Both the position numbers and the translations under genes were made by a program. The notes below the pieces were generated by a model. It was not told the DNA's origin and made no database searches. It was given only the letters and a program-made list of their open reading frames with translations. Below are positions 19,970 to 57,351 of a stretch of DNA of 57,351 nucleotides, one piece after another; position 1 is the first letter of the stretch; each line of letters opens with the position of its first letter. The stretch is from Planctomycetia bacterium (GTDB lineage Bacteria; Planctomycetota; Planctomycetia; Gemmatales; Gemmataceae). The DNA lies in the NCBI GenBank assembly GCA_005772955.1, contig SXID01000096.1, forward strand, positions 1 through 57,351, read 5' to 3'.

Positions 19970-20081
19970 GTTCTTGGCGAGCGGGGGCGTAAGCCCCCTG
20001 TTGCGCACTCAACCACTCCTGACTAACGTAAAAGGGATTGGGCGCGCAACAGAGGGCTTACGCCCCCCGCTCGCCAAGAAC
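19970..20081. repeat. Long inverted repeat with GTAAGCCCCC core
   Basis: Near-perfect arms of about 38 nt (19970-20006 and 20044-20081) share TTCTTGGCGAGCGGGGGCGT and the TAAGCC core. They lie between the dGTPase gene and the addiction-module gene. This looks like a REP-type mobile palindrome. I recall the core as recurrent in Gemmata genomes, but have not checked. Confidence 0.75.
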
Positions 20082-22265: not shown

Positions 22266-22281
22266 GTGGTTGTTGTAGGGT

Positions 22282-22380
22282 GGGTCAAGGCTTTGCGCAG
22301 GCCCACCACATGCGACACCAATTCGATCCACATTCTTGCAAGTAACTCAGTGCGGGTGGGCCTGCGCAAAGCCTTGACCC
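22282..22380. repeat. Perfect 26-bp inverted repeat
   Basis: Arms at 22282-22307 and 22355-22380 are perfect complements (GGGTCAAGGCTTTGCGCAGG and on). A third, single copy with one mismatch lies at 44775-44800, in the rpmJ-rpsM spacer. Confidence 0.85.
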
Positions 22381-22391
22381 GCTCTCCAACA

Positions 22392-31881: not shown

Positions 31882-31884
31882 TTT

Positions 31885-31995
31885 ATCGTAGTCATCACGC
31901 TCCGCGTGATGTCGCCTTTGCGAGTGCAGGTGCGATTCGAGAAACGTTATCGCTTGCTGCGGCGCGGACATCACGCGGAGCGTGATGACTACGAT
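31885..31995. repeat. 28-bp perfect inverted repeat, rplB-rpsS spacer
   Basis: Arms at 31885-31912 and 31968-31995 are perfect complements. Each arm contains its own smaller palindrome, CATCACGCTCCGCGTGATG. It begins 3 nt after the rplB stop codon. This is the clearest REP-like element in the cluster. Confidence 0.9.
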
Positions 31996-32051
31996 GAAGA
32001 GTTGACAGAAATCAACTGGTCTTTCGCGCGGCGGTTGCTAATGTGAACAGT

Positions 32052-33943: not shown

Positions 33944-34402
33944 ATGCCTCAGATGCCCAAACGGGTGAAGTTCCGAAAAGCGTCGCGCGGCGTGGTCCGC
34001 GGGCGCACGACCCGGCGCAAATACAACGGGCCGATCAAGGGGTTCGCGCACCGCGGCAACTACGTCGCCTACGGCGACTACGGCCTGCAAACGCTCGAAG
34101 GCGGGTGGCTGTCGGCCGAGTGTATCGAGAGCGGGCGTGTGACCATGACGCGGTTCGTGTCGGGCGAGGGGCGGTACTACATCCGCGTGTTCCCGCACAA
34201 GCCGGTTACTTCCATCCCCGCGGAAACGCGAATGGGTAAGGGTAAGGGCGAGCCGGAATACTGGGCGGCTGTCGTTCGGCCGGGGCTGATCCTGTTCGAG
34301 ATCGGCGGTATCCCGGAAACCGCGGCCAAAGAATGTCTCGCGCGTGTTGCGTACAAGATGCCGTTCAAGTGCCGGTTCGTGACCCGGCGGCCCAATATCT
34401 AA
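33944..34402 (+). CDS. rplP: 50S ribosomal protein L16
   Basis: A 152-residue protein, slightly longer than the usual 136-140. MPQMPKRVKFRKASRGVVRG is the L16 start, with GGGAG before ATG 33944. The conserved region VTMTRFVSGEGRYYIRVFPHKPVTSIPAETRMGKGKGEPEYW contacts the A-site tRNA and contains the Arg hydroxylated in some bacteria (R in ETRMGKG). It is followed directly by a palindromic word array whose left arm starts at the last base of its stop codon. Confidence 0.96.
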   Translation: MPQMPKRVKFRKASRGVVRGRTTRRKYNGPIKGFAHRGNYVAYGDYGLQTLEGGWLSAECIESGRVTMTRFVSGEGRYYIRVFPHKPVTSIPAETRMGKGKGEPEYWAAVVRPGLILFEIGGIPETAAKECLARVAYKMPFKCRFVTRRPNI

Positions 34403-34497
34403 GGATGAAGGATGAAGGATGAAGGATGAATCAGGAGAATGATGAAGCGGCGGCCCTGTTCCGACCTTCAACCTTCAACCTTCATCCTTCATCCTTC
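34402..34497. repeat. GGATGAA word-array inverted repeat, rplP-rpmC spacer
   Basis: Four tandem GGATGAA words (34402-34430) face tandem TTCAACC and TTCATCC words (34467-34497). The arms pair over about 28 bases with few mismatches. It starts at the last base of the rplP stop codon. Confidence 0.85.
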
Positions 34498-35826: not shown

Positions 35827-35936
35827 GTGTTTAGTGTTTGGTGTTTTGTGTTTGGTTGGGCGCTCGGCATCGTGCCGGCCGCGTGAACGACGCAGAACGC
35901 CGAACACAAAGTACTAAACACCAAACACGAAACACT
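35827..35936. repeat. Word-array inverted repeat, rplN-rplX spacer
   Basis: GTGTTTAGTGTTTGGTGTTTT words at 35827-35854 pair with AAACACCAAACACGAAACAC words at 35901-35936 (one mismatch in about 20). It ends 4 nt before the rplX ATG, which has no Shine-Dalgarno site. Confidence 0.8.
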
Positions 35937-36972: not shown

Positions 36973-36988
36973 TCGCGAGTGTTGAGTG

Positions 36989-37034
36989 GCGAGTTGCGAG
37001 CAAAAACACGCGGTGTTCTTTGCTCGCAACTCGC
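36989..37034. repeat. Perfect 16-bp hairpin, rplE-rpsN spacer
   Basis: GCGAGTTGCGAGCAAA (36989-37004) and its complement (37019-37034) enclose a 14-nt loop. More CGAGT/ACTCG words surround it. It begins 17 nt after the rplE stop. Confidence 0.85.
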
Positions 37035-37131
37035 TCCTGAAAACTCGCTCCTCAGACAGTGGAACGGCCGGCTCCCCCAAAGTGTGTAACTTTGGATTCC
37101 GAGTCGGAACGCCGCACCGAGAGACCCCGCG

Positions 37132-39813: not shown

Positions 39814-40349
39814 TGGATCTGTCAACCGTTTCCTCCCCCGGCATTGACAAGCGGAAGCTCAAGCGGCGCGTCGGTCGCGGCATCGGCTCCGGTCACGGCA
39901 AGACCAGCGGTCGCGGGCACAAGGGCCAATACGCCAGCGCCGGTGCCGACCTGCCCAGTGGGTTGTTCGAAGGCGGCCAGATGCCGCTGTTCCGCCGGTG
40001 GCCCAAGCGCGGGTTCAGTCACGCGACCTGGGACAAGTCCGCCGCCGTCGTGAATGTCGGCGACCTCGAAGCATTCGACGCAAACAGCACTGTCGATATG
40101 GCGTCGCTGAAGACTTGCCGGCTCGTGGTCGGCTCGTTCGACCGACTGCGCATTCTCGGCGACAACGCGGCGAAGTTGACCAAGAAACTGACGGTGCGGG
40201 CCGATCACTTCTCGAAGGCCGCGAAGGCCGCAATCGAGAAGGTCGGCGGCACGTGCGACCTGATTCCCGCTCCGAAGAAACCGGTCCGCAACAAGATGGG
40301 GTCGAAGAAGAAGGCCCAAGACGCCGCACGCGCAGCGAAGAAGAAGTGA
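39813..40349 (+). CDS. rplO: 50S ribosomal protein L15
   Basis: A 178-residue protein; usual is about 145-150. The conserved start KRRVGRGIGSGHGKTSGRGHKGQ (about residues 18-40) binds 23S rRNA, followed by FEGGQMPLFRRWPKRGF. The C-terminal part has a Lys-rich end (MGSKKKAQDAARAAKKK) beyond the normal fold. It starts on the last base of the rpsE stop (TAATG). The following 126-nt spacer contains the longest perfect stem in the cluster. Confidence 0.96.
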   Translation: MDLSTVSSPGIDKRKLKRRVGRGIGSGHGKTSGRGHKGQYASAGADLPSGLFEGGQMPLFRRWPKRGFSHATWDKSAAVVNVGDLEAFDANSTVDMASLKTCRLVVGSFDRLRILGDNAAKLTKKLTVRADHFSKAAKAAIEKVGGTCDLIPAPKKPVRNKMGSKKKAQDAARAAKKK

Positions 40350-40353
40350 GGAA

Positions 40354-40448
40354 TGAGGAGGTCGGAAGAAGTGAGGAGTGAGGAGTGAGAGTGGAAAGCC
40401 TACTCCTCACTCCTCACTCCTCACTCCTCACTTCTTCCGACCTCCTCA
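40354..40448. repeat. 35-bp perfect inverted repeat of GGAGTGA words, rplO-secY spacer
   Basis: Arms at 40354-40388 and 40414-40448 are perfect complements with a 25-nt loop. Both are built from tandem GAGGAGTGAG words. It begins 5 nt after the rplO stop codon and ends 27 nt before secY. Confidence 0.93.
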
Positions 40449-40475
40449 CTTTTGAAGTGAAGTAGGGACACGACC

Positions 40476-42020: not shown

Positions 42021-42030
42021 GCAGGAAAAA

Positions 42031-42084
42031 GAAACCTACCCCCCAACCCCCTCCCTGAAGGGAAGGGGTTGGGGGGTAGGTTTC
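42031..42084. repeat. Perfect 20-bp hairpin with CCCCCCAACCCC core, secY-adk spacer
   Basis: GAAACCTACCCCCCAACCCC (42031-42050) and its complement (42065-42084), with a short CTCCCTGAAGGGAA loop. The same core occurs inside pfaA at 54111-54197. It begins 10 nt after the secY stop. The rest of the 224-nt spacer, up to adk, has no gene. Confidence 0.9.
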
Positions 42085-42244
42085 TTGCCCCCCCTTCTCT
42101 TTTTTCGGCCGTTGGTGACAATACAGAGGTTGTGAAGGATCGGTGTGCCTCTCCCCGACCCGGCACCGGGCACGCTCGACTTCGGTTGGCGTGGGCCGGG
42201 CGACGCTCCGGCCGTTGCCGGCGGCCCCCGCAAGGTGACGGTTC

Positions 42245-43499: not shown

Positions 43500-43561
43500 A
43501 ACGAACCGCGACCGCAAGGGAGCGGCAAAGCTCAACCACTCCCTTGCGGTCGCGGCTCGTT
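43500..43561. repeat. 23-bp inverted repeat upstream of map
   Basis: AACGAACCGCGACCGCAAGG and 3 nt (43500-43522) pairs with its complement (43539-43561), one mismatch. Its CCGCGACCGCAAGGGAG core resembles the 26-nt dispersed repeat. TAGAGCGC and GCGCTCTA outside form a second stem. Confidence 0.8.
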
Positions 43562-45954: not shown

Positions 45955-46593
45955 ATGGCACGCAACACAGACCCCGTTTGCAAGATGTGTCGTCGGGAAC
46001 AGGTGAAACTGTTCCTCAAGGGCGACCGGTGCTTCAGTCCGAAGTGCCCGATCGACCGCGAAGCCCTACCGCCCGGTATGCACGGCGCGCGGCGTTCCAA
46101 GACCTCCGAATACGGCATCCGTCTCCGCGAGAAGCAGAAGCTCAAGCGGTTCTACGGTGTGCTCGAAGCGCAGTTCCGCCGCTACTACCAACTCGCGACA
46201 CGCGCCACCGGTAACACCGGCGAGCAGTTGCTCTCGATTCTGGAACGCCGTCTCGATAACGTCGTCCACCGGCTCGGGTTTGCCATCAACCGCAACGCTG
46301 GCCGCCAGATGGTCGCCCACGGGCACATTCTGGTGAATGGCGTGAAGTGCGATATCCCCAGCATGTTGGTCAAGCCGGGTGACATCATCAAAGTGAAGGC
46401 CCGCGACGGCAGCTTGAAGATGGCCCGCGAGACGCTCGCGAAGGGCGTGGTTCGCATCCCGGACTTCCTCGAACTGACCGGGAGCCAGGACGCCCCCGAA
46501 GGCCGCATGACACGCGTGCCGAGTCGCCAGGACACCGACGAGCGCATCACGGACATCCGCGAGCAGCTCATCATCGAAATCGCCACCCGCTAA
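45955..46593 (+). CDS. rpsD: 30S ribosomal protein S4, zinc type
   Basis: A 212-residue protein, standard length. ATG 45955 begins ARNTDPVCKMCRREQVKLFLKGDRCFSPKC, the zinc knuckle with CxxC and a C-x6-C pair. The S4 domain follows: ERRLDNVVHRLGFAINRNAGRQMVAHGHILVNG (about residues 98-130). S4 nucleates 30S assembly and in E. coli represses the alpha operon. The ATG has weak upstream purines. Its stop codon is the first bases of a palindrome. Confidence 0.97.
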   Translation: MARNTDPVCKMCRREQVKLFLKGDRCFSPKCPIDREALPPGMHGARRSKTSEYGIRLREKQKLKRFYGVLEAQFRRYYQLATRATGNTGEQLLSILERRLDNVVHRLGFAINRNAGRQMVAHGHILVNGVKCDIPSMLVKPGDIIKVKARDGSLKMARETLAKGVVRIPDFLELTGSQDAPEGRMTRVPSRQDTDERITDIREQLIIEIATR

Positions 46594-46668
46594 AGTAGTA
46601 GGCACACGCGGTGTACCGTTGCTTCACGGGTGGTATCGCGACGGCACACGGAGTGTGCCTACTACTTT
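46592..46668. repeat. Perfect 16-bp hairpin at the rpsD stop codon
   Basis: AAAGTAGTAGGCACAC (46592-46607) and its complement (46653-46668). It begins inside the rpsD TAA. The loop is 45 nt and itself has short ACGG-CCGT pairs. Confidence 0.88.
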
Positions 46669-53730: not shown

Positions 53731-56700
53731 ATGACACCTATTGCCGACGCACAACCCGACACAACCAGCGCGAAACGTGACGCGCGATTCGAGCCGCTCG
53801 CGATCGTCGGTCTGGGCTGCCTGTTCCCGAAGGCGGCCGGGCCGGGGTTCTTCTGGGCGAATGTGAAGCACGGTGTAGACGGCATCACCGCGGTGCCGCC
53901 GACGCACTGGAACCCGGACGACTACTTCGATGCGGACCCCAAAACCCCCGACATGACCTACGCCCGCCGCGGCGGATTCCTTTCCGCAGTCGAGTTCAAT
54001 CCGCTCGAGTTCGGCATCGCGCCGCGCGACATTGAAGCCACCGACACCACGCAACTCCTGGGCCTGGTCGCCGCGAAGCAGGCGCTGACCGACGCGGGCA
54101 TCGTTCTGAAGAACCTACCCCCCCAACCCCCCTCCCTTCGGGGAGGGGGGAGTGAAGCCCCCCTCCCCGAAGGGAGGGGGGTTGGGGGGATAGGTTCTGA
54201 AGTCTCCCGCGATCGCGTTTCGGTCATCCTCGGCGTGACGGGCACACTCGAACTCGTCATTCCTCTCGGCGCGCGATTGGGCCACCCCAGATGGAATCGC
54301 GCGATGCAGGACGCGGGCATCCCGCAGGAGCTTGCCGACGACGCTGCGGCTCGCATCGCGGAGAGCTACGTTCCGTGGCAGGAGAACAGCTTTCCCGGGT
54401 TGCTCGGGAACGTGGTCGCGGGGCGCATCGCGAACAAGCTCGACCTCGGCGGTACGAACTGCGTCGTCGATGCCGCGTGCGCCAGTTCGCTGAGTGCCGT
54501 TCACCTCGCGGCCCTCGAGTTGCAGGCGGGCCGGTGCGATGTCGCCGTGTCGGGCGGGTGCGACACGTTCAACGACATCTTCATGTACATGTGCTTCAGT
54601 AAGACACCGGCGCTGTCGCCCACCGGCGATGCGAAGCCGTTTGCGGAAGACGGCGACGGCACCATCCTCGGCGAAGGCCTGGGGATGGTCGTACTGAAGC
54701 GCCTCGCGGACGCCGAGCGCGCCGGCGATACGATTTATGCTGTTCTGAAGGGACTGGGTTCGTCCAGCGATGGCAAGGGTAACGCGATCTACGCACCCAG
54801 TGCTGCAGGTCAGAAGAAGGCGCTACTCGCGGCATACCAACTTGCGGGCGTAACACCCGACACGATCGAGTTAGTCGAAGCGCATGGCACCGGCACGAAA
54901 GTTGGCGACACGGTCGAAATCACGGCGCTAACGGATGTCTACACCACGTTTAGCCGCGACCCGAAGGGGAGCGCGCTGAAGCCCAAACCCTGGTGCGCGA
55001 TCGGCTCGGTGAAGTCGCAGATCGGGCACACGAAGGCCGCGGCGGGCGCGGCGTCGCTCATCAAGGCGGCGCTCGCGATCTACAACAAGGTGCTGCCGCC
55101 GACGCTGAAGGTCACGCGGCCGGTCGAACCACTGCTCGCGGCCGACACGCCGTTCTACGTGAGCGCTGAGATGCGCCCGTGGCTGCCTCGCGCCGAACAC
55201 CCGCGGCGCGTGGCACTGTCCGCGTTCGGCTTCGGCGGCAGCAACTTCCACGCGGTGCTTGAAGAACACCGGCCGGAGAAGCGCGAGCCGGACTGGGACG
55301 GATCGACCGAAGTCGTCGCGCTCGCGGCCGACACGCCGCAGGCGCTCGCGGCCGAACTCGCGAAGCTGCCGACCGAGTGGAACGCGTTCGCCCGTGCCGC
55401 CGAAGCCTCACGCGCATCCTTCAATGCGTCTGCCGCGTGCAGGATGTGCTTCGCGGTCCACCGCGCGCTCACCGACCTGCCGAAGATGCTCGCAGGCGCG
55501 AAGGCCAAACTCGGCGCCGACCCGGACGCGACGAGTTGGCACACTCCGGACGGCGTTCACTACGGGCGCGGACCGGTCGCCGGCCAACTTGCGGTGCTGT
55601 TCCCGGGCCAAGGTTCGCAGTCCGTCGGAATGCTCCGCGATCTCGCGTGCCTGTTCCCGGAATCGCTCGATACGCTCGCGGTCGCGAACGAAGCCGTCGC
55701 TGCGTTGTCACACGAAGACACCGATGCGCGCCGGTTGAGCGACTACATCTACCCGCCGACCACGTTTGACGCCGAGCGGAAGAAGGACAACGACCGCGCC
55801 CTTCGCGACACGCAGAACGCACAGCCGGCCCTTGGCGCGGTGAGCTTCGGACCGTGGCGAATCCTGAGTACGCGGTTCGGCCTCAAGGCCGATGCGTTCG
55901 CGGGGCACAGCTACGGCGAACTCGTCGCACTCGCCGCCGCCGGGCGCCTTGAGACTCGCGACCTGTTCCGTCTGTCGCGTGTTCGCGGTCAACTGATGGC
56001 CGATCGCCGCGCCGACGACCCCGGCGCGATGCTCGCCGTTCTCGCGCCGCTGCCCGACATCGAATCGGTGATCGCGCGAGAGAATCTGAACGTGGTCGTG
56101 GCGAACCGCAACGCACCCAAGCAGAACGTACTCTCCGGGGCGACGGCCGAGATAGAACGCGCCGCGAAGGTACTCTCCGAATCGCGATTGAAGGCGATGC
56201 GGCTTCCGGTCGCGGCGGCGTTCCACTCGTCGCTCGTCGCTGACGCCGCCGGCCCGTTCCGCGCTGCGCTCGAAGGGACGCCGATCACAGTTTCGCAGGA
56301 AACTCTTCCGGTGTACGCGAACACGACGGCTGCAAAGTACCCGGCCGACGCAAACGCGGCGAAAGACATGCTCGCGAACCAGCTCGCGCAGCCGGTTGCG
56401 TTCGTGGAACAGATTCGCGCGATGGCCGCAGCTGGTGTCCGCACGTTCCTCGAACTCGGGCCGGGATCGGTACTGACGCGGCTGGTCGAAGCGATTCTGG
56501 CAGACACGCCGGTCGCGGACGCAACCGCCTTCGCGCTCGATGCTTCTGGGGGGAAGCGGCCCGGTGTGTTAGATTTGGGGAACGTGTTGGCGCGTCTCGC
56601 GGCCGGGGGATACGCTGTCACGCTCGCAGCTTGGGAACGTGAAAGCCGGTGCCGCCCGCCCGCGCCGCGGAGCGGGAAGCCGGGCCTCACGGTCAGCGTG

Positions 56701-57351
56701 TGCGGCGCGAACTCGGTGACCCCACGCGAAAAGCGACCACCCCGCGCCCCGCAGCATTTGTCCTCCGCGAACGGCAACGGTAAGCCGCACGCGGGCGTTC
56801 CCGCACTCGCGATTCCGGCACGGTCGAAGGGCCATGTGATGTCAGACGCCAACGCTCCCGAACCGAACGCGCTCGCCCAGGCGCTGCTCATGACGCAGCA
56901 GAGCCTCGCCGCGATCCAGCGGATGCAGGAGCAAACCGCGGCACTGCACCGGCAGTTCCTCGACGGGCAGGAGACCGCGCATCGCACGTTGCAAACGCTC
57001 GTCGATCAACAGCAAACATTGCTGCTGTCGGGCCTCGGCGCGGGCACACCGTTGCCCACAGTCGCGTATGCTCCCTCGCTCCCGCCGGTTGTGCCCGCTC
57101 CGATCCCCACGCCGCCCGCTCCGATCTTTCCCGCGTTCGCGCCGCCACCGCCGCGCCCCGCTGCACAGTCGCCGGTTCCGCCCACGCCGGTCGCGAAGAT
57201 CTCGGCCCGAACCGAGGTCGCTTCGATGTTGCTGGCGGTGGTGAGCGAGAAGACGGGCTACCCGGCGGACAGTCTGGACTTGTCGATGTCGCTGGACGCG
57301 GACCTGGGCGTGGACTCGATCAAGCGTGTGGAGATTCTGTCGGCGTTGCAG
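53731..57351 (+). CDS. pfaA: Polyunsaturated fatty acid/polyketide synthase PfaA-like, N-terminal part (window edge)
   Basis: The first 1207 codons are present and the gene runs off the window. The ketosynthase occupies about residues 25-500, with catalytic Cys in DAACASS (residue 250), His in EAHGTGT (385) and His in GHTKAAAG (433). The acyltransferase starts near LFPGQGSQ (about 625) and has GHSYGE with Ser 727. A Pro/Ala linker leads to the first acyl carrier domain, with DLGVDSIKRVEI (Ser 1196), ending at the window edge. PfaA builds long polyunsaturated chains from malonyl units with PfaBCD. Two repeat-derived insertions lie in the KS coding region (residues 127-156 and about 406-415). 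HglE-like PKS are related, so product type is not certain. Confidence 0.93.
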   Translation, partial: MTPIADAQPDTTSAKRDARFEPLAIVGLGCLFPKAAGPGFFWANVKHGVDGITAVPPTHWNPDDYFDADPKTPDMTYARRGGFLSAVEFNPLEFGIAPRDIEATDTTQLLGLVAAKQALTDAGIVLKNLPPQPPSLRGGGSEAPLPEGRGVGGIGSEVSRDRVSVILGVTGTLELVIPLGARLGHPRWNRAMQDAGIPQELADDAAARIAESYVPWQENSFPGLLGNVVAGRIANKLDLGGTNCVVDAACASSLSAVHLAALELQAGRCDVAVSGGCDTFNDIFMYMCFSKTPALSPTGDAKPFAEDGDGTILGEGLGMVVLKRLADAERAGDTIYAVLKGLGSSSDGKGNAIYAPSAAGQKKALLAAYQLAGVTPDTIELVEAHGTGTKVGDTVEITALTDVYTTFSRDPKGSALKPKPWCAIGSVKSQIGHTKAAAGAASLIKAALAIYNKVLPPTLKVTRPVEPLLAADTPFYVSAEMRPWLPRAEHPRRVALSAFGFGGSNFHAVLEEHRPEKREPDWDGSTEVVALAADTPQALAAELAKLPTEWNAFARAAEASRASFNASAACRMCFAVHRALTDLPKMLAGAKAKLGADPDATSWHTPDGVHYGRGPVAGQLAVLFPGQGSQSVGMLRDLACLFPESLDTLAVANEAVAALSHEDTDARRLSDYIYPPTTFDAERKKDNDRALRDTQNAQPALGAVSFGPWRILSTRFGLKADAFAGHSYGELVALAAAGRLETRDLFRLSRVRGQLMADRRADDPGAMLAVLAPLPDIESVIARENLNVVVANRNAPKQNVLSGATAEIERAAKVLSESRLKAMRLPVAAAFHSSLVADAAGPFRAALEGTPITVSQETLPVYANTTAAKYPADANAAKDMLANQLAQPVAFVEQIRAMAAAGVRTFLELGPGSVLTRLVEAILADTPVADATAFALDASGGKRPGVLDLGNVLARLAAGGYAVTLAAWERESRCRPPAPRSGKPGLTVSVCGANSVTPREKRPPRAPQHLSSANGNGKPHAGVPALAIPARSKGHVMSDANAPEPNALAQALLMTQQSLAAIQRMQEQTAALHRQFLDGQETAHRTLQTLVDQQQTLLLSGLGAGTPLPTVAYAPSLPPVVPAPIPTPPAPIFPAFAPPPPRPAAQSPVPPTPVAKISARTEVASMLLAVVSEKTGYPADSLDLSMSLDADLGVDSIKRVEILSALQ
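54111..54197. repeat. 87-nt palindromic element inserted in frame in pfaA
   Basis: Two halves are near-perfect complements (GAACCTACCCCCCCAACCCC end, mirrored to GGTTGGGGGGATAGGTTC), with CCCTTCGGGGAGGG in each half. It adds 29 codons and encodes LPPQPPSLRGGGSEAPLPEG, an unrelated Pro/Gly run. The core matches 42031-42084. The reading frame is kept on both sides. Confidence 0.88.
54948..54973 (+). repeat. 26-nt dispersed repeat, copy inside pfaA
   Basis: Identical to 33064-33089 over 26 nt. It is translated as TFSRDPKGSA within the KS between the EITALTDVYT helix and the WCAIGSVKSQIGH motif. Confidence 0.85.

Follow-up and report, generated by a model that had tools for sequence, protein, structure and literature searches.

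In-frame copies of a dispersed palindromic repeat in pfaA and unrelated genes of a Gemmata-type planctomycete

Introduction

Protein-coding palindromes are already known from the Rickettsia palindromic elements (RPEs) and from the intragenic REPs of Opitutus. RPEs are described, in passages of PMC10969869, as palindromic, multi-family and dispersed elements of about 150 bp that often lie in frame in unrelated genes. Intragenic GTAG/CGTC REPs occur as REP dimers or groups within ORFs of Opitutus terrae, R. conorii and Thauera, where they span 20–30 residues; the sections of PMC3733652 that deal with them discuss them as possibly neutral in linkers or loops and assign Opitutus terrae, together with the Planctomycetes, to the PVC superphylum, and the name "Gemmata" has 0 occurrences in the main text of that paper. 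Long inverted repeats within translated genes have also been described in Nematomorpha mitochondria, where, according to passages of PMC6649704, both arms code for conserved protein.

Here we describe a dispersed palindromic repeat family, to which we give the name A/B, and its copy within a pfaA-type gene. The window, that is, the whole stretch of 57,351 nt that was analyzed, is contig 68 of the host genome (G000; 5.93 Mb, 278 contigs). Among the matches listed from the Gemmata and Planctomycetes literature, mostly non-subscription, there was no report of the A/B family or of repeated occupation of one loop.

Results

The palindrome within pfaA

The features of the window discussed below are the following.

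53731–57351, + strand: pfaA-type polyunsaturated fatty acid synthase ORF with KS, AT and ACP start; runs off the window
54110–54198, + strand: palindromic element in pfaA, A-type; arms 54110–54150 and 54158–54198, spacer 54151–54157
54127–54150, + strand: inner hairpin of the left arm (CCCCCCTCCCTTCGGGGAGGGGGG), read from the sequence
54158–54181, + strand: inner hairpin of the right arm, read from the sequence
42029–42086, + strand: short A-type copy (one hairpin), lying between the ORFs of SecY and ADK

The element at 54110–54198 is an inverted repeat with 41-nt arms, 98% complementary, around a 7-nt spacer; folded as RNA it reached −97 kcal/mol (z −11.7), and 0 of 200 shuffles were equally stable. 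The original prediction had placed an 87-nt palindromic unit (54111–54197) in the pfaA ketosynthase, where it would insert about 29 residues after the DAGI helix and before the SVILGVTG strand. The unit was confirmed to be in frame and free of stops, and the open frame running through it bears out the added residues, with KNLPPQPPSLRGGGSEAPLPEGRGVGGIGS as the encoded peptide. A core common to this element and the secY–adk hairpin had also been proposed; the core CCCCCAACCCC occurred four times in the window, compared with 0.07 expected, and every occurrence fell within either the 54110–54198 element or 42029–42086. Beyond that prediction, each arm of the pfaA element was found to contain an inner hairpin of its own (CCCCCCTCCCTTCGGGGAGGGGGG). 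Pfam analysis of the ORF, the start codon of which is our pick inside the open frame, revealed a KS-AT-ACP protein whose KS-N match was split into two stretches, and the truncated protein scored 887.9 bits with NCBIfam TIGR02813, below the full-protein cut-off of 1010.1.

The PfaA loop that holds the element was read between its helix and strand anchors in 78 of 80 loci of named relatives. Loop length was 11–20 residues at 59 loci, 22–23 at 3 and 25–49 at 16; the host loop has 42 residues. An A/B seed was present in only one of the 78 parsed loops, that of the sister species (L157), and the alignment of relatives thus revealed the 29-residue block to be patchy, as anticipated. In an AlphaFold model of 520 residues (mean pLDDT 77.7, pTM 0.83), the insert corresponded to residues 107–136, between helix 86–102 and strand 143–149, with pLDDT below 50 at residues 116–126 and 128–134; the best PDB match of the model was 4na1, a bacillaene ketosynthase. 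If translated, the insert would form a Pro/Gly-rich, probably disordered loop of about 29 residues.

Structure and distribution of the A/B family

Comparison of the pfaA element with G000 yielded 94 alignments (both strands counted), and a degenerate 16-nt arm pattern matched the genome 92 times, compared with 3 for the reversed control, so that the family is multi-copy, as a check for further copies had been expected to reveal. Neither of the two outcomes named as contrary to the original prediction, a conserved loop in distant PfaA proteins and a lack of other copies in the genome, turned up. The same arm pattern matched 160 times in G001, the sister species and closest relative, and 20 times in G015; the 16 remaining congeneric genomes had counts of 0–7, and 40 genomes from outside the genus had 0–2. 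An automatic arm search over 60 fetched stretches and the window located at least 46 palindromic A/B copies in G000, with copy sizes of about 46–155 nt. A full copy consists of two inverted half-units, GAAGAACCT[A/CT]..CCCCCCAACCCCC.., each bearing a hairpin, around a variable spacer, which in other copies ranges, by eye, from near none to roughly 70 nt; short copies consist of one hairpin alone. Two sub-types were distinguished, A (CCTACCCCCCAACCCC) and B (CCTCTCCCCCCAACCC).

Copies inside and outside genes

A frame open for at least 60 codons on each side spanned 21 of the 46 copies, with GC3 of 0.69–0.85 (L090:978, L098, L101 and L114, with GC3 below 0.66 in the spanning frames, were left out of this set), and a Pfam family was present in 20 of these 21 frames. 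Two copies, L086:3228 and L089, probably lie upstream of their genes, because composition before the insert was of non-coding type (GC3 0.43–0.44); the L115 copy is also probably upstream, because the PanB domain, and with it the protein, starts directly past the insert. Setting aside these copies, each of which probably precedes a start codon, reduced the number from 21 to 18, and all 18 exhibited coding-type GC3 (0.68–0.93 over 80 codons) immediately on both sides. Thus 18 of the 46 located copies lie in frame in unrelated genes, in agreement with the proposal that palindromes of this family sometimes enter genes.

Of the 18 in-gene copies, 10 had homology both before and after the insert, namely those in PfaA, a NifS-like aminotransferase, PMT, a type III PKS, an acyltransferase/AMP-ligase, the CCA-adding enzyme, QueG, a FAD oxidase, a P-type ATPase and GT87. 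The insert in the type III PKS falls between the N and C domain matches, those in QueG and GT87 lie inside the DUF1730 and GT87 matches, respectively, and that in the P-type ATPase immediately precedes the GDGI(N/T)DAPAL motif. In a further 7 copies (L060, L061, L065, L071, L076, L085 and L095) homology was one-sided as far as seen, and the first ORF of L117, which holds the remaining copy, matched no family. As for copies outside genes, scanning of the same-strand ORFs that flank 11 of them (10 together with the SecY/ADK copy of the window) revealed different genes on the two sides in 8, such as FixO/COX1, DnaG/sigma-70 and Complex1_51K/iron-sulphur protein; in L109, L110 and L070 one flank had no family match. 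The L068 copy sits inside a PSCyt2/PSD1 gene where the contig ends, and may also count as in-gene.

The original prediction held that insertions within genes survive only at 3n length; this applies to the net frame but not to the length of the element itself. With fixed element boundaries, 7 of the 18 in-gene copies were 3n, 11 were 3n+2 and none was 3n+1, so that under these boundaries the copies do not follow a strict 3n length rule. Copies of 3n+1 accounted for 0 of 18 in genes versus 7 of 28 elsewhere (Fisher P = 0.032; the same length test on the initial 21 copies gave P = 0.011). The consensus of each sub-type, A and B, contains a stop in one forward frame, and the in-gene peptides read the open frames, which the ORF-spanning search had itself demanded. 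These observations bear on the alternative that the palindromes are cut out of the mRNA, or that ribosomes skip them, leaving proteins with no extra residues. A hairpin of −97 kcal/mol in a coding region would be an obstacle, and in some relatives the loop breaks the frame of a gene that is otherwise conserved, both of which would suit such removal. Removal needs no frame, however; the 18 in-gene copies are in frame and avoid the stop-bearing frames (an outcome that the spanning-ORF search favors), and no recognized G000 gene was frame-broken by an A/B copy among the 8 decidable copies. We consider removal or skipping very unlikely.

Palindromes in the same loops of related species

Five genes chosen for their G000 copy (PfaA, P-type ATPase, QueG, type III PKS and FAD oxidase) were compared across species, all within the genus except for 3 of the 20 PfaA rows, which came from other genera of the family. 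With identical loops collapsed, 86 gene-species rows remained; a palindrome was called strong when its arms were at least 24 nt, and the count elsewhere in an ORF began after codon 40. For PfaA, 21 of 30 loci were used (17 parsed from the genus, 3 from other genera and 1 unreadable at an assembly gap), and for QueG 17 of 18, one partial locus being omitted. Unreadable rows numbered 2 of 20 for the P-type ATPase (both pieces of the frame-broken G015 gene), 2 of 20 for the type III PKS (one frame-broken, one at a contig end) and 6 of 24 for the FAD oxidase (two distant paralogues and four with weak anchors). Stops occurred within several relatives' P-type ATPase and type III PKS matches, all of them outside the loops that were read.

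Strong palindromes numbered 35 in the focal loops versus 6 elsewhere in the same ORFs, and 30 versus 5 when G000 was left out, a contrast that is not a clean test because the genes were picked for their G000 copy and the species are related. The focal loop held a strong palindrome in 4 of 20 rows for PfaA, 7 of 17 for the P-type ATPase, 10 of 17 for QueG, 5 of 17 for the type III PKS and 9 of 15 for the FAD oxidase. Single-linkage clustering by shared 11-mers divided these palindromes into 10 sequence groups, the largest of which (n = 21) consisted of A/B and its kin; the QueG palindrome of G014 belongs to this group yet looks unrelated, and was probably joined via its spacer. The focal loops carried inserts in many species, and several of these inserts were palindromes unrelated to A/B. 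Beyond the original proposal, palindrome families other than A/B occupy the same loops in other species, and two of these families were multi-copy in genomes that carry them in a loop. For GAGCGGGGGGCGTMAGCCCCCTG there were 54 matches in G010 and 33 in G018, including two in the PfaA loop of G010 and two in the QueG loop of G018, and CGCGACCGYCAGGGAGCGG, with one mismatch allowed, matched 331 times in G014, including the QueG loop; the controls gave 0 in all three cases. The sisters G000 and G001 differ in sub-type at 3 of 5 loops (PfaA, A and B; P-type ATPase, B and A-like; type III PKS, A-like and B, respectively). The five loci tested yielded no exact empty site, and all of them were occupied in the sister species as well.

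It is possible, but in our judgment unlikely, that Gemmata proteins have a limited set of landing loops, repeatedly re-occupied by unrelated mobile palindromes with the family switching even between sisters, such as those in PfaA, the P-type ATPase, QueG, the type III PKS and the FAD oxidase. Re-occupation of this kind may go beyond tolerance alone, with an existing hairpin preferred as a target or one palindrome replacing another; if true, selfish repeats would be a main source of loop evolution in conserved enzymes of the genus.

Second palindromes were seen in some of these ORFs. The FAD oxidase of G000 (L295, contig C22) contains one of another type (AGTTCCAAGTTCC...) at about residue 774, and that of G001 (L296) has a palindrome at about residue 762, near the counterpart of the L295 one. 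The PfaA ORF of G016 (L131) contains a second, C-rich palindrome (CCCACCCCCCCTCCCTGAAGGGAGG...) at about residue 565.

Four loops of relatives were frame-broken or interrupted, two of them at assembly gaps. The PfaA (L143) and QueG (L268) loops of G009 contained runs of N plus stops, and the 85 N in the interrupted PfaA loop were identical in G009 and the Gemmata sp. IIL30 record (L190); as G009 belongs to the host genus, that genus is probably Gemmata. In the type III PKS of G009 the frame changes across the insert with no N, and the P-type ATPase loop of G015 (L250) holds only an arm end and loses the frame. These loops may reflect assembly faults at hairpins or truly broken genes. Such gapped (G009) or truncated (G015) palindromes in draft genomes would be expected if short-read assembly had made or misplaced the hairpins altogether, an explanation to which we give hardly any credence: the independent record of the sister species carries the same family at the same PfaA loop, and in-frame palindromes occur in the same QueG loop of two single-contig genomes, G002 and G007, as well as in the FAD oxidase of G007. 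Separately, the N runs, stops and truncation at hairpins in drafts (L143/L190, L268 and L250) raise the prospect that repeats are under-counted in short-read genomes.

Spread of the family

Together, the structure, the copy number, the in-frame positions, the patchiness and the recurrence at the same loops make it likely, in our view, that A/B is a non-autonomous dispersed palindromic repeat that has multiplied in the host species and its sister, that the pfaA block is a copy that was inserted, is translated and is tolerated, and that survivors cluster in permissive loops. An A/B copy would have entered the PfaA ketosynthase loop between helix and strand and would be translated as a tolerated Pro/Gly-rich loop of about 29 residues, and other copies would have entered many genes likewise. 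Selection would purge insertions that break the frame, meet the stop-containing frame or hit the protein core; because insertions elsewhere would be lost in this way, the survivors would accumulate in a few permissive loops, so that different families would come to fill those loops in different species. The mobility suggested by the original prediction is supported by copy number and patchiness, from which we infer transposition as the probable cause of the spread.

In 45 copies, no direct repeat of 2–8 nt that would indicate a target-site duplication was enriched at the tested offsets; no long sequence was shared beside several A/B copies among the fetched stretches, and no RAYT was found beside an A/B palindrome. 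Shared flanks among these stretches gave no sign of an autonomous parent: the shared pieces were short repeats, with two pairs (289 and 301 nt, 68–69%) as the longest blastn matches, or pairs of similar coding sequence. In contig C143, a composite element of 2.1 kb was considered and rejected, as its inverted arms belong to separate in-frame palindromes in different ORFs.

One reading of the structure is that A/B is a REPIN, in which paired REP units are moved via single-stranded DNA by a RAYT (Y1) transposase with no target-site duplication. The paired inverted hairpin half-units, the variable spacer, the short single-unit copies and the result on direct repeats in 45 copies are consistent with this. 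A search for RAYT-like transposases had been suggested at the outset; they do exist in G000, with 8 Y1_Tnp matches, 6 of them above the curated cut-off, but an A/B palindrome lay alongside 0 of the 8 in the DNA examined (L121 and L124 being cut by contig ends). Strong palindromes of other families were found at 6 of the 8 loci. The palindrome at L121 belongs to the family of window 31882–31998, and the L121 protein resembles a REP-associated tyrosine transposase (NF047646, 64.3 bits; cut-off 80); the palindrome at L126, where the Y1_Tnp match is below the cut-off, belongs to the family of window 43500–43561, and the L126 protein scored 22.3 bits with NF047646, well under every cut-off. The L126 family is within one mismatch of the G014 QueG-loop repeat with its 331 matches. 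RAYT-type elements therefore probably exist in G000, and a close relative of one of their candidate families has reached a loop. Against the REPIN reading, A/B also fails to conserve a GTAG-type tag, with GGTAGG in A copies and GGAGAGG in B copies. We regard REPIN-type movement of A/B as a real but tentative possibility.

The other reading considered makes A/B a MITE that arose by deletion from an insertion sequence with a DDE transposase and is recognized through terminal inverted repeats GAAGAACCT.... The terminal inverted repeats and the copy sizes of about 46–155 nt would fit, but the 45 copies had no target-site duplication, the fetched copies included no full-length element or long shared flank, and the C143 arms 2.1 kb apart proved to be two in-frame copies in two ORFs; a MITE origin seems to us rather unlikely.

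The window is dense in repeats of other types. The palindromes at 31882–31998 and 43500–43561 represent candidate REPIN families with a mover (Y1_Tnp at L121, and the match below cut-off at L126), and that at 19970–20081 is a nested palindrome (GCGAGCGGGGG... / GGGGGCGTAAGCCCCC...) like the GAGCGGGGGGCGTMAGCCCCCTG family of the PfaA and QueG loops. Further palindromes lie at 22271–22391, 34401–34497, 35827–35935, 36975–37048, 40340–40451 and 46592–46668, their types including GTAGGGTGGGTCAAGGC, AAGGATGAAGGATG, GTGTTTGGTGTTT, GTGAGGAGTGAGGAG and others.

Discussion

Our analysis adds Gemmata-type Planctomycetota to the groups with protein-coding palindromes, in numbers large enough for effects on proteins to be studied. 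The species compared offer natural replicates, with one enzyme loop holding unrelated inserts by species alongside species with a short loop. Such replicates allow the direct question of whether loops are tolerated or targeted, and of how selfish DNA feeds the evolution of protein loops. The findings also call for caution: Pro/Gly-rich blocks like PLPPTPSPKKGGG in proteins encoded by these genomes derive from repeats, at which draft assemblies can fail.

Judged by sequence, the A/B family would be assigned to the descriptive class of protein-coding palindromic repeats, being multi-copy, in frame in unrelated genes and absent from orthologues elsewhere. Like REPINs, A/B consists of two inverted REP-like units with hairpins around a variable spacer, and G000 has RAYT-like genes with palindromes of other families alongside; unlike REPINs, A/B has no RAYT beside it, and many of its copies lie inside genes. 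Compared with the intragenic GTAG/CGTC REPs as presented in parts of PMC3733652, A/B differs in that it has no conserved GTAG or CGTC tag and no linked RAYT was found. A/B resembles the RPEs, as far as passages of PMC10969869 describe them, in being palindromic, multi-family, dispersed and often in frame in unrelated genes, and occupation of one loop by unrelated families is absent from those passages. It differs from them, in a comparison made by description and not by sequence, in belonging to a different phylum, in being GC-rich and in having two inner hairpins. In the coding palindromes of Nematomorpha, as given in passages of PMC6649704, the repeat is itself conserved protein sequence, whereas the A/B palindrome is a block added to the protein.
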